A DNA stretch of 64,000 nucleotides from Ignavibacteria bacterium (GCA_036262055.1 DATAJP010000003.1:310001-374000); one strand, 5' to 3'; counted from the stretch's first letter, positions 52,923 to 56,477 are shown. Notes: generated by a model not told the origin, from the sequence alone. Numbers and translations: made by a program.

Positions 52923-53624
52923 TCAGTTTAGTGTCTTAACAAGCAGTTTAATCAGTTTAGAAAACTTCTCATAAGTTTTTTTTCCGGCTTCCTCAACTTC
53001 GGAATGACACAACATATCACCGGTGCTTTCATAAAGCATATTAGTTATGCATGAAATTCCTATAAACCTAATATTATTTTCCTTTGAGTGAAGAACTTCG
53101 GGAACGGTTGACATTCCCACAGCATCAGTTTTTATTTTCATCAATGTGCGTATGTCCGACTTTGTTTCATAACACGGACCGCTAAGCGAGCAATAAACGC
53201 CTTGCTGAAGTTTTATGCCATTTTGAATAGCAATCTTGCGGGTTTCGAGATTCAAATTTCTGTCGTAAATGTTAGTCATCTTTTGGTTATTACCGGAACG
53301 TTTAAATCCGAGGTTTATATGTGAGATTATCAGCATAAGGTCTGTAACTTTAAACGTCCTGTTCACTCCGCCTGCAGCATTAGTTATGATGAGGTTTTTA
53401 ATTCCCTTTTTTTTGGCATTTATGATGTTCGAAACGACTTCCGTATAATCGGCTCCTTCATAAAAATGCTTTCTTCCTTTGAATAAAATTACCTCACTGC
53501 CGTCAAGCTTACCTTTAAGAATTTTTCTATTATGAAATGAATTTTTATCCTCAAATAAAACTTCAGGGGAGGAAAGTTCATTTATAAGCTCCTGCAAACC
53601 CGAACCAAGTATAATTCCCGTCAT
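52923..53624 (-). CDS. punA: Purine-nucleoside phosphorylase (type I)
   Basis: A 233-residue phosphorylase of purine nucleosides. ILGSGLQEL is the phosphate loop at the very N-terminus; KGRKHFYEG, LIITNAAGGVN, SGPCYETKSDIRTLMK and MSTVPEVLHSKE match family motifs. It lacks the roughly 25 residues that usually precede the GSG loop, and an in-frame TAG nine bases upstream rules out extension. A transposon is inserted 50 bases upstream and probably separates it from its original promoter. Confidence 0.85.
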   Translation of the reverse strand: MTGIILGSGLQELINELSSPEVLFEDKNSFHNRKILKGKLDGSEVILFKGRKHFYEGADYTEVVSNIINAKKKGIKNLIITNAAGGVNRTFKVTDLMLIISHINLGFKRSGNNQKMTNIYDRNLNLETRKIAIQNGIKLQQGVYCSLSGPCYETKSDIRTLMKIKTDAVGMSTVPEVLHSKENNIRFIGISCITNMLYESTGDMLCHSEVEEAGKKTYEKFSKLIKLLVKTLN

Positions 53625-53665: not shown

Positions 53666-53673
53666 ATTCATTT
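53666..53673. repeat. Left target-site duplication (ATTCATTT)
   Basis: Eight bases immediately outside the left inverted repeat, identical to 56470-56477. Confidence 0.9.
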
Positions 53674-53705
53674 GGTAGTGTCTTAATTTGAAAGGGTTAA
53701 TTAGA
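53674..53705. repeat. Left terminal inverted repeat
   Basis: The first 20 bases pair perfectly with 56450-56469; the next 12 pair at 9 positions with 56438-56449. Confidence 0.92.
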
Positions 53706-53740
53706 GAAAAATTTAACAATTTTACTTGACAATTTATAAA

Positions 53741-53914
53741 ATGGAAAATTTAACTATTGAAGAAGAGAAAAAAATTGAAATTAATGAAACTGTAGAAATA
53801 CAAATTAATTCTGAAATTGTTAAAAAAATTTTAGAAAATCAGGAAGAGATAATTAAAAAAATAAATAATTTAGAAAAAAGATGGTTTGGTGATAATAAAG
53901 AGATTATTGATTAA
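53741..53914 (+). CDS. Transposon passenger: small Glu/Lys-rich coiled-coil protein
   Basis: A 57-residue protein from the ATG (a TTG 15 bases earlier is possible). It is mostly Glu, Ile, Lys and Asn, with heptads (VEIQINSEIVKKILENQEEIIKKINNLEKRW) suggesting one coiled coil. No known family. It converges with the 70-residue minus-strand ORF, overlapping by 11 bases. Confidence 0.5.
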   Translation: MENLTIEEEKKIEINETVEIQINSEIVKKILENQEEIIKKINNLEKRWFGDNKEIID

Positions 53915-54116
53915 ATAAATCAGTTTTATTATCTATACTTGCTACTGAACTTTCAATATTTAAAATTTTATCTTCTAAGCTATCAAATTTTATTTCATAA
54001 TTCATTAAAAATTGATTTATATCAGAAATAGCTTGAATAATTAGATTTAATTTTTGTTCAGGAGGTAAACCTTTTGAAACTTCTGTTTCAACTCCATTTA
54101 TATCAAAGTATTGCAT
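53904..54116 (-). CDS. Transposon passenger: small helical protein
   Basis: A 70-residue acidic protein with a short strand start (MQYFDINGVETEV) and two predicted helices (EQKLNLIIQAISDINQFLMN, KFDSLEDKILNIESSVASID). It starts three bases after the stop of the 72-residue ORF upstream, so the two are co-translated. No family recognised. Confidence 0.55.
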   Translation of the reverse strand: MQYFDINGVETEVSKGLPPEQKLNLIIQAISDINQFLMNYEIKFDSLEDKILNIESSVASIDNKTDLFNQ

Positions 54117-54119
54117 AAT

Positions 54120-54338
54120 TTATTCTTTTATGTTTTCTTTTATTCTTGAGACTATTTGATTATAGTAACTTTCTGATGCTTTATCAAATCTTTCATATAC
54201 TTCTTCTATATTCTTACTATCAATTTTCGCTAAAATTTCACAACAAATATCTCTTAAAGCTAATACCCTTGCTTCAATTGTAACCACTTCTTGTGCAATG
54301 ATTGGATTATCTACATTAACATTAATTTCTTGAGCCAT
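54120..54338 (-). CDS. Transposon passenger: small helical protein
   Basis: A 72-residue acidic protein (MAQEINVNVDNPIIAQEVVTIEA...) with helices bearing a CC pair (DICCEIL) and YERFDKASESYYNQIV. It lies 66 bases downstream of the transposase on the same strand and just upstream of the 70-residue ORF. No family recognised. An accessory role with the transposase is possible but unproven. Confidence 0.55.
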   Translation of the reverse strand: MAQEINVNVDNPIIAQEVVTIEARVLALRDICCEILAKIDSKNIEEVYERFDKASESYYNQIVSRIKENIKE

Positions 54339-54404
54339 TTTGTTTGGATTTAATTTTCGGTTAGAATAAAATATTTATTAATAAGCTAATAAGCAACATC
54401 TTCC

Positions 54405-55328
54405 CTAAGCTACTTTCTTCAAATTCTCACCATAATTCAAGAACTTTTCCCAACTCCAAAAAGTATTAGTAACATTTGAAGCCATTGCAGGAGTTACTTT
54501 AATAGTTTTATGCTCTCGGATAAAGTTGTAATAAAAGAAATGTAAAGCTACAGCATATTTCAGATTATCTAATTTCTTACTAAAGGCATTAGTTAATCTT
54601 GTAAATCTTCTCATATTCATTCTCATAGTTAAATTTTGTCTTTCTATATGACTTGTAGAGATTCTTTTCTTATCGGGGTCATTAATTAAAGGAAATATAT
54701 TAACTGATGTAAGCGGAGAAGGACTATATTTATATTCATTCCCATTATTATGACTATAAGATTTGTGGATTTGACCATATTTAATATCATTTCTAAAAAC
54801 ATTTTTAACAGCGTGAAAATAAGATTTAAAGCTATCAGTTGATAATTGAAATTCGTTAATAGTTCTCTTATCCAATTCACTAATAAACATTAAAGTATTT
54901 TCTGCATTTCTTTTACCTACTAAATAATTAATGACAAGTTTAGTTTCGGAATCCATAGAGACAAATGTATATTGGTCTCCTTTTTCGGTTTTTTCATAAT
55001 ATCTTTCATCCATTGTAAGATTCTTTTGCTTACAACCAACATAAGCCCAAATCTCATCACACTGAACATAATTAGATTTCACATTAACAACTAAATCATT
55101 ATGAATTTGCATAGCTTTTTTACCTGCATTTTTAAGCAAAGTCATAACAGTATTTCTATTAATACCTGTCATTCTTTCGATGCTTCGGATTGAATTTCCT
55201 TCGGATAAAAGATTTAAAACTAAGATTTGTTTTTGTTGAGATAAACGGTTCATTGCGATTCCTTTCTTTTTGTCTTTATAAAAGGTCTGCAATGAACTAT
55301 TTTTGTTTAGGATTAAAGGTCTGTTCAC
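54405..55328 (-). CDS. IS1-family-type DDE transposase
   Basis: A 307-residue transposase, or 282 if translation starts at the Met at 55253, which has AAAGGA about eight bases upstream and is preferred. An N-terminal helix-turn-helix (GNSIRSIERMTGINRNTVMTLLKNAG) binds the ends. The catalytic triad is Asp91 (QCDEIWAYVG), Asp165 (STDSFKSY) and Glu229 (HIERQNLTMRMNMRRFTRLTNAFSKK), 307-residue numbering. The HxERxNLxxR motif and the C-terminal HFFYYNFIREHKT are typical of single-frame IS1-type enzymes. It is intact. Confidence 0.93.
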   Translation of the reverse strand: MNRPLILNKNSSLQTFYKDKKKGIAMNRLSQQKQILVLNLLSEGNSIRSIERMTGINRNTVMTLLKNAGKKAMQIHNDLVVNVKSNYVQCDEIWAYVGCKQKNLTMDERYYEKTEKGDQYTFVSMDSETKLVINYLVGKRNAENTLMFISELDKRTINEFQLSTDSFKSYFHAVKNVFRNDIKYGQIHKSYSHNNGNEYKYSPSPLTSVNIFPLINDPDKKRISTSHIERQNLTMRMNMRRFTRLTNAFSKKLDNLKYAVALHFFYYNFIREHKTIKVTPAMASNVTNTFWSWEKFLNYGENLKKVA

Positions 55329-55343
55329 GCAGAACTTTTTTCT

Positions 55344-55376
55344 GAAGGGTAACTAATTACGAGTTAGTTACCCTTC
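55344..55376 (+). terminator. Strong hairpin upstream of the transposase gene
   Basis: Perfect 13-bp arms GAAGGGTAACTAA / TTAGTTACCCTTC with a 7-base loop, followed on the plus strand by GTTTTT. It probably separates the transposase half from the right-hand passenger genes, or guards against read-through. Confidence 0.65.
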
Positions 55377-55435
55377 GTTTTTATATCATAAATATAGGTA
55401 GATTAGTTAATTTTTTGTTCTAATTCAGTTAGAAT

Positions 55436-55467
55436 ATTGATATTTGCTTTTAATACTCATAATTTTG
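55436..55467 (+). promoter_or_regulatory. Bacteroidota-type promoter for the right-hand passenger genes
   Basis: ATTG at 55436-55439, 20 bases, then TAATTTTG at 55460-55467: the same boxes and spacing as the rpsU promoter. The zinc-ribbon ATG is 13 bases on, so the leader would be very short. Confidence 0.45.
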
Positions 55468-55480
55468 TTTAAATCATAAA

Positions 55481-55738
55481 ATGAAGATAGTTTTATTATA
55501 TTTCTTATCAGATAAAGATTCAAATGCGGTATGTTGTATTGGGATAATTATATTAATATTTGTTGCATTTTTTATGGGATATTTAAGAAAAATAAAACTA
55601 CAAAAAGAACAAGAACAAGCTAATCGTTATTTATCTAATAAGTATGAAGAAGAGAAAGGAATGAAAAAATGTCCTTATTGTGCAGAAAAAATAAAATATG
55701 AAGCAATTAAATGTAAGCATTGTGGAAGTAATTTATGA
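55481..55738 (+). CDS. Transposon passenger: membrane-anchored zinc-ribbon protein
   Basis: An 85-residue protein. One transmembrane helix (IGIIILIFVAFFMGYL, about 21-37) is followed by a charged coil, then CPYCAEKIKYEAIKCKHCGSNL, a two-CxxC zinc ribbon at the very C-terminus. Such proteins are common small membrane zinc ribbons with unknown function. No catalytic residues are visible. It may act with the next small ORFs. Confidence 0.7.
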   Translation: MKIVLLYFLSDKDSNAVCCIGIIILIFVAFFMGYLRKIKLQKEQEQANRYLSNKYEEEKGMKKCPYCAEKIKYEAIKCKHCGSNL

Positions 55739-55797
55739 AATTTTGTATATATAAATAAGGTTAAGGAGAAAGAAGAAGAAAAATTTAAATAAATGAA

Positions 55798-55971
55798 ATG
55801 GATTGTTCAGAAGAAAAATTAAAACTCATTGATGAAAAGAAAAAATTATATTGGGGAAAATTTGAAAAATTTTGTGAAGAAAACAACCAAAAATCAGCTA
55901 CAATGCTCTTATTGTTAAATATAGTGGATAGAGAAAAATGGAATGCTTTAAAATTAGAAGTTGAGACTTAA
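55798..55971 (+). CDS. Transposon passenger: 57-residue hypothetical protein
   Basis: A short gene found by reading the gap: ATG at 55798, stop at 55969-55971. The product begins MDCSEEKLKLIDEKK and has YWGKFEKFCEENNQKSATMLLLLNIVDREKW in its middle. It is helical and charged, and overlaps the end of the convergent minus-strand ORF by 18 bases. AGGAGA-like bases lie 35 upstream, too far for a normal ribosome-binding site, so the start is uncertain. Confidence 0.45.
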   Translation: MDCSEEKLKLIDEKKKLYWGKFEKFCEENNQKSATMLLLLNIVDREKWNALKLEVET

Positions 55972-56340
55972 TTCTAAAATTCTACTTTCAAGTTTTTCGC
56001 TATCCATATTTTGTATTTCTAATATTTCATTATCAAAATTATTTTCAATTTCTTTATTTCTATTTAATAGTTGAAATCTCGGTAAACCTTCATTAGTTTT
56101 AATAATTTTTTCTATTGTAGCTGTTACATATACAGATAGATGTTTTTCAAAAAGTTTAACAAAAAATTTAAAAGTATTTGAAGATGTAAAATGTATTGTA
56201 GTGGCTGTATATCTTTTAATAGGTTCACATTTTTCTTTTACCAATAAACATATTATAAGTTCTCTAACATCATCATTAGAAATATTCTCGTTATCATTGG
56301 GGTTATGTAAATCATAACTAATAGAAAATAGATGTGTCAT
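55954..56340 (-). CDS. Transposon passenger: possible Cas2/SinR/VapD-fold protein
   Basis: A 128-residue protein. Residues 1-12 (MTHLFSISYDLH) resemble the first strand of Cas2/SinR-type ferredoxin folds (xxISYDLxxP with Asp), followed by a helix with LIICLLV and a strand TATTIHF. The C-terminal 45 residues are acidic. It reads inward from the right inverted repeat. No active-site residues beyond Asp10 can be assigned. The fold call is a guess from pattern; an unrelated small protein remains possible. Confidence 0.55.
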   Translation of the reverse strand: MTHLFSISYDLHNPNDNENISNDDVRELIICLLVKEKCEPIKRYTATTIHFTSSNTFKFFVKLFEKHLSVYVTATIEKIIKTNEGLPRFQLLNRNKEIENNFDNEILEIQNMDSEKLESRILELSLNF

Positions 56341-56437
56341 AAGTAAATTTTAAATTTTCGGCTTATCAACAAATTAACTATTCTATATTTCACTTTCAAC
56401 TCTTACAACTCTTTAATTTTAGCTTATAATCAAATAG

Positions 56438-56469
56438 TCTATTTAACTGTTTCAAATTAAGACACTACC
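56438..56469. repeat. Right terminal inverted repeat
   Basis: Inverted copy of the left end; 20 bases perfect, then 9 of 12. Confidence 0.92.
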
Positions 56470-56477
56470 ATTCATTT
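56470..56477. repeat. Right target-site duplication (ATTCATTT)
   Basis: Identical to 53666-53673, directly outside the right inverted repeat. Confidence 0.9.

Follow-up and report, generated by a model that had tools for sequence, protein, structure and literature searches.

Within a 64-kb stretch of DNA from an Ignavibacteria bacterium (the whole stretch is hereafter called the window), positions 53674-56469 are occupied by a transposon of 2,796 bp, in which an IS1-type transposase gene and six small open reading frames (ORFs) are enclosed by a single pair of terminal inverted repeats (Table 1). The two repeats are identical over 20 of 20 bp and retain 91% identity when extended to 33 nt. 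Both ends read GGTAGTG, which conforms to the GGnnnTG end pattern of the IS1 family of insertion sequences (IS), and they are bordered by an exact target-site duplication whose length lies inside the 8-9 bp expected for this family. When the flanks were shuffled 200 times, with an exact 8-bp duplication demanded in each case, the best repeat beside the duplication reached at most 15/20 matches. No internal IS ends were found between the two terminal repeats. The original prediction had described the locus as a complete IS1-type transposon carrying passenger genes, and the ends, the duplication, the intact transposase and the six ORFs on which it relied are all confirmed here.

Table 1. Features of the transposon and its insertion site, numbered from the first base of the window
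Feature	Position	Strand	Remarks
Left target-site duplication ATTCATTT	53666-53673	.	Identical copy at 56470-56477
Left terminal inverted repeat GGTAGTGTCTTAATTTGAAA	53674-53693	+	Fits the branch consensus GGTAGTGGCTCAGTTTGA from 180 ends
Passenger ORF, 57 aa, charged	53741-53914	+	No known domain; weak alone, supported by the ORF excess
Passenger ORF, 70 aa	53904-54116	-	Probably a coiled coil (judged by eye)
Passenger ORF, 72 aa	54120-54338	-	Upstream of the 70-aa ORF at a distance of 3 bp
Region of 31 bp covering the leader and start of the 72-aa ORF	54333-54363	-	30/31 with the leader of a 64-aa passenger ORF
IS1-type DDE transposase, 282 aa	54405-55253	-	N-terminal helix-turn-helix; D66/D140/E204; PF03400, PF13610
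Hairpin across the transposase start, arms GTTCATTGC/GCAATGAAC	55248-55297	-	Minimum free energy -17.5 kcal/mol, z -6.15
Terminator-like stem of 16 pairs with a T run after it	55343-55377	+	Between the divergent transposase and zinc-ribbon genes
Passenger ORF, 85 aa	55481-55738	+	Hydrophobic N-terminal segment and C-terminal zinc ribbon; PF13248, phrog_8436
Passenger ORF, 57 aa	55798-55971	+	No known domain; weak alone, supported by the ORF excess
Passenger ORF, 128 aa	55954-56340	-	ORF this long in 0/300 shuffles
Right terminal inverted repeat	56450-56469	-	20/20 with the left repeat
Right target-site duplication ATTCATTT	56470-56477	.	Exact 8-bp direct repeat

The transposase is encoded by an intact frame that matches PF03400 (DDE_Tnp_IS1) with 29.7 bits (cut-off 24.1), in an alignment covering the E-motif, and PF13610 with 28.7 bits (cut-off 27). 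No variation occurs at D66, D140 and E204, or in an ERQNLTMR-type block, across the 90 aligned transposases, and relatives of the protein are labelled 'IS1 family transposase' in plasmid records. The two-ORF frameshift layout of classic IS1 was not found, the transposase being a single ORF; because single-ORF members are recognised within the IS1 family, this excludes only the label 'classic IS1'.

The best 80 hits per collection (genome and viral contigs) were taken, giving 160 relatives with transposase identities of 41-64%. Both ends and a target duplication were readable at 90 relative loci; two near-identical viral contigs carrying the same insertion reduce these to 89, and the window brings the set back to 90 elements. 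These measure 1,323-6,694 bp (median 3.1 kb) and have GGTAGTG ends; the duplication is 8 bp long in 89 of them and 9 bp in the remaining one, and every one contains a passenger ORF that is 100 aa or longer. A weight matrix built from 180 ends recovered more paired ends that lack a duplication, and these too are at least 2 kb apart. Viral-contig loci such as L105, L106, L126 and L146 have good paired ends and no target duplication, unlike most others. The matrix also located three elements on annotated plasmids of Acidiphilium, Mesorhizobium loti and Hoeflea, each bordered by an exact 8-bp duplication. The closest relatives occur in one genome of the same order, which has three related transposases (57-64% identical) in elements measuring 3,052, 5,100 and 2,556 bp that have GGTAGTG at their ends and differ in their 8-bp duplications, and a fourth transposase on a short contig.

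Movement of such a unit can be followed in Tsuneonella rigui, where four contigs (L037, L038, L039 and L042) end in a 2,047-bp element and their flanks pair as two insertions, with the 8-bp duplications CGGGGCCG and CCATTTCT. The copies at these two sites are 100% identical and encode, besides the transposase, ORFs of 80 aa and 165 aa; the unit in this relative therefore transposes together with its cargo. By eye, one of the two insertions appears to break an ORF that continues across the joined flanks.

The cargo itself is variable. Element pairs whose transposase genes are 80-84% identical at the DNA level have no more in common than the transposase block and a stretch of 78-158 bp at the left end; outside these parts they are unrelated. 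On the transposase tree, P63C cargo changes 12 times over 14 rows, and the other cargo clusters change about once per row. As judged from these comparisons, cargo does not follow the transposase and is evidently swapped between similar elements. A check suggested with the original prediction, that the passengers should always accompany this transposase, thus fails, and the transposases nearest to that of the window, 57-64% identical to it, are found with entirely different cargo.

Exchange may also cross family boundaries. The same genome contains, at L014:5615-8073 (contig C1), an IS1595-type passenger element of 2,459 bp with the 8-bp duplication CTCAAGAG, which encodes a 303-aa transposase (PF12762 with the IS1595 zinc ribbon) and ORFs of 64, 93 and 184 aa, the last a SocA-like Panacea protein. 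A leader almost identical to that of the 72-aa ORF in the window stands before the 64-aa ORF, at about 6009-6039 of L014, and the two ORFs are otherwise dissimilar. The agreement of 30 of 31 bp suggests, without proving it, that parts of the cargo have been exchanged between IS1-type and IS1595-type elements. The 22-base core of the leader has only two exact matches in the genome, both before passenger ORFs; it was also considered as a genome-wide promoter motif, which was rejected given that exact matches are confined to these two and weaker ones in relatives are near background.

Expression of the transposase is probably restrained by RNA structure. The AUG codon of the transposase lies inside the predicted hairpin stem, and AAAGG from the Shine-Dalgarno stretch is paired as well. 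As the arms were picked by complementarity, the weight of this observation rests on shuffle P-values and not on pair counts: P<0.0025 for the window, and P<=0.02 for 21 of the 144 transposases tested, compared with 2.9 expected. The stem-bearing transposases take in most of the sub-branch to which the window belongs, and their arm sequences differ yet pair (GCAATG/CATTGC, ACTATG/CATAGT, GCGATG/CATCGC and AAAATG/CATTTT in relatives). It is probable that the start-codon hairpin keeps transposase translation low. There is no obvious gene for the terminator-like stem at 55343-55377 to terminate. This hairpin and terminator, placed 100 bp ahead of the transposase gene, was rejected as a conserved part of the element, since the relatives did not show it as a regular feature.

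Besides the transposase, six ATG-initiated ORFs of at least 57 aa are present, making seven in total, whereas dinucleotide shuffles lead to an expectation of 0.42. The 72-aa and 70-aa ORFs form a probable operon; the former has no clear homologue, with one borderline match, and the latter gave weak coiled-coil-type matches, none of them a convincing homologue, among 294 genomes of the class. The 85-aa ORF matches PF13248 (E 4.9e-7, passing the cut-off) and phrog_8436 (E 6.5e-16), and its matches, most of which cover nothing but the zinc ribbon, are scattered over 13 other genomes of the phylum. For the 128-aa ORF, no homologues were found in the 294 genomes of the class, IMG/VR viral contigs or PDB sequences, and a single-sequence structure model was uninformative (predicted local distance difference test score 39.5). 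A by-eye resemblance of this ORF to Cas2/VapD was dropped for want of PDB, Pfam, NCBIfam or PHROG support and of a usable structure model.

The cargo of the relatives is more readily identified. Among 149 of their passenger proteins, Pfam searches detected P63C (11), HTH_3 (10), M78/IrrE-type peptidases (10), SocA-like Panacea proteins (5), N6/N4 DNA methylases (4), GmrSD, Mrr, Fic, NYN and ClpP-like proteases (2 each) and BglII (1), and PADLOC assigned several families with 4-8 members. As controls we used 148 proteins of similar length that are encoded in the flanks at the same loci. The 25 top Pfam families listed for them are mostly metabolic and contain none of those named above, and their commonest PADLOC family had 2 members. 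The three elements nearest to that of the window carry a DUF433 and PIN-like pair, an Mrr nuclease and an HNH nuclease. Most proteobacterial and acidobacterial elements of the branch also encode, near the left end, a small protein with the pattern GG..GG..RA...L....R..IA..AA.ARW, of which the small basic protein at L209:3075-3284 is an example; in the M. loti plasmid record, the ORF at this position is annotated 'histone H1'. A profile of this protein gives matches within 66 of 91 elements, some falling in P63C proteins at the N-terminus; there are none in the element of the window or its nearest relatives. In L208, an Acidiphilium multivorum plasmid, a pair formed by a RES-domain protein and an MbcA/ParS/Xre antitoxin begins at or just past the right end of the element.

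Passenger genes unrelated to transposition that lie within one pair of IS ends define a transporter IS (tIS; PMC3129680), and passenger-bearing members of the IS1 and IS1595 families are already described in passages of PMC8496243, which credits Siguier et al. 2009, and of PMC3129680. With unrelated passenger ORFs between one pair of ends, the element of the window is a further member of the IS1-type tIS. The original prediction had regarded cargo as unusual on the grounds that IS1 relatives have none, a view that does not hold, both because of these descriptions and because all readable elements of the branch carry passengers. Like other IS1-family tIS, the element combines an IS1-type DDE transposase, ends starting with GG, a short target duplication and passengers between the ends; it differs from them in that its cargo consists of six small, unassigned genes and in that every readable element of its branch has cargo. 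The IS1595-type element of the same genome is alike in being a passenger unit of similar size with an 8-bp duplication and the common leader before a small passenger ORF, but it has another transposase and other ends (GGCAACTACTTACTTGACAAAC).

Classic IS1 elements are 0.7-1.2 kb long and are not known to carry cargo. The enterobacterial IS1 shares with the element of the window the transposase motif block (DE-W, TD and HIERQNLTMR-type) and GGnnnTG ends, whereas the latter has a single-ORF transposase, is 3-4 times longer, carries cargo and is bordered by an 8-bp instead of the usual 9-bp duplication. Mobile units with exchangeable defence cargo are also known among Tn7-like and other defence-island transposons, from which the present branch differs in having one DDE transposase, a size of 1.3-6.7 kb and no targeting proteins.

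Taken together, we consider it very probable that the locus is a complete, probably functional IS1-type tIS, moved as a whole unit by its transposase, with translation probably throttled by the hairpin and with replaceable cargo, here likely a defence-like module. The 282-aa transposase would bind the GGTAGTG ends and cut there, and the whole 2.8-kb unit, cargo included, would be joined to a new site through an 8-bp staggered cut. The cargo situated from the left end up to the transposase block is replaceable: ends and transposase are retained, and the genes that they enclose are exchanged. Given that the cargo of the relatives consists largely of addiction, restriction or defence genes, the six small genes are most likely an uncharacterised module of this type, which may benefit or tether the element.

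Several observations weigh against this interpretation. The element has a copy number of one in its own genome, so its own mobility is read from its structure and from its relatives, and no empty site was found when the joined flanks were compared with 44 genomes of the order, which include no second species of its own genus; the matches were partial, lying in neighbouring coding or flank sequence, and none crossed the junction. A recent insertion, as originally predicted, is compatible with the data but is unproven for want of a second copy and of an empty site. The best NCBIfam family of the transposase, NF033558 IS1 (E 3e-19), scores 69.8 bits, and its equivalog cut-off is 100. The window passengers matched no toxin, antitoxin or defence families in Pfam, NCBIfam or PHROG (PADLOC covered the cargo of relatives only), nor did they match the passengers of other elements, and no relative carries them. 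A bare IS of about 1 kb was not seen among the best 80 hits per collection, and a subgroup of such elements may exist further out.

The lack of a domain or homologue for four of the passengers (57, 57, 72 and 128 aa), the weak matches of the 70-aa ORF and the AT-richness of the element (24.7% GC, compared with 35.7% for the remainder of the window) would fit captured junk or decaying DNA within an otherwise ordinary IS. We regard such an absence of functional cargo as unlikely, considering the excess of long ORFs, the zinc ribbon, which is a real domain, the leader that the 72-aa ORF shares with a passenger gene from another IS family and the clear functional families among the cargo of relatives. 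Much less probable still is a compound structure, in which two IS ends enclose an unrelated region. The sole transposase gene does lie well inside, and passengers of either orientation are located to its left and right; however, one perfect pair of ends, the exact duplication and the lack of internal IS ends argue for a unit transposon, and the same layout recurs in 89 relatives, as well as in the two identical Tsuneonella copies.

More finely balanced is whether the passengers form specifically a toxin-antitoxin or anti-phage module and not some other selfish accessory function, which we rate as a little short of an even chance. The abundance of such genes in the cargo of relatives over the flanking controls, the nucleases and the DUF433 and PIN-like pair of the three nearest elements and the SocA-like Panacea protein of the IS1595-type element all point in this direction, but the passengers of the window match no such family and, as short and isolated ORFs, resist assignment.

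Extending our interpretation of the window element as a cargo-replacing tIS to its relatives, we propose tentatively, and as something that we hold to be possible but doubtful, that obligate cargo is a trait of a broad IS1-type branch present in at least Ignavibacteriota/Bacteroidota, Acidobacteriota, Pseudomonadota, Nitrospirota, Planctomycetota and Actinomycetota. Its elements would be compact, modular carriers of toxin-antitoxin, restriction and defence genes, with cargo swapped between fixed ends and transposase, control by a start-codon hairpin in the sub-branch of the window and, usually, the small GG..GG..RA...ARW protein ('histone H1-like') close to the left end; the six genes of the window would then constitute a defence or addiction module not yet described. 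The element of the window is itself of a known type, and it is this branch-wide cargo pattern that is of interest. No description of a whole IS1-type branch with constant, exchangeable and defence-rich cargo was found in the literature searched, ISfinder lying outside the comparison, and that literature likewise yielded no paper about ISMhu11, IS1 passenger branches or 'histone H1' together with an IS1 transposase. If the pattern is true, small IS1-type units would be an overlooked vehicle by which individual genes for toxin-antitoxin systems, restriction and defence pass between distant bacteria, and why an IS lineage never loses its cargo would become a testable question. Since the cargo occupies a predictable slot between recognisable ends, reading that slot would offer a simple route to new genes of these kinds.

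Regarding its immediate surroundings, a purine nucleoside phosphorylase gene (52923-53624, minus strand) has the element 49 bp upstream of its start, and the element is likewise upstream of a gene for a protein sorted by the type IX secretion system (T9SS). As it is thus located upstream of these two genes, no gene appears to have been interrupted by the insertion.

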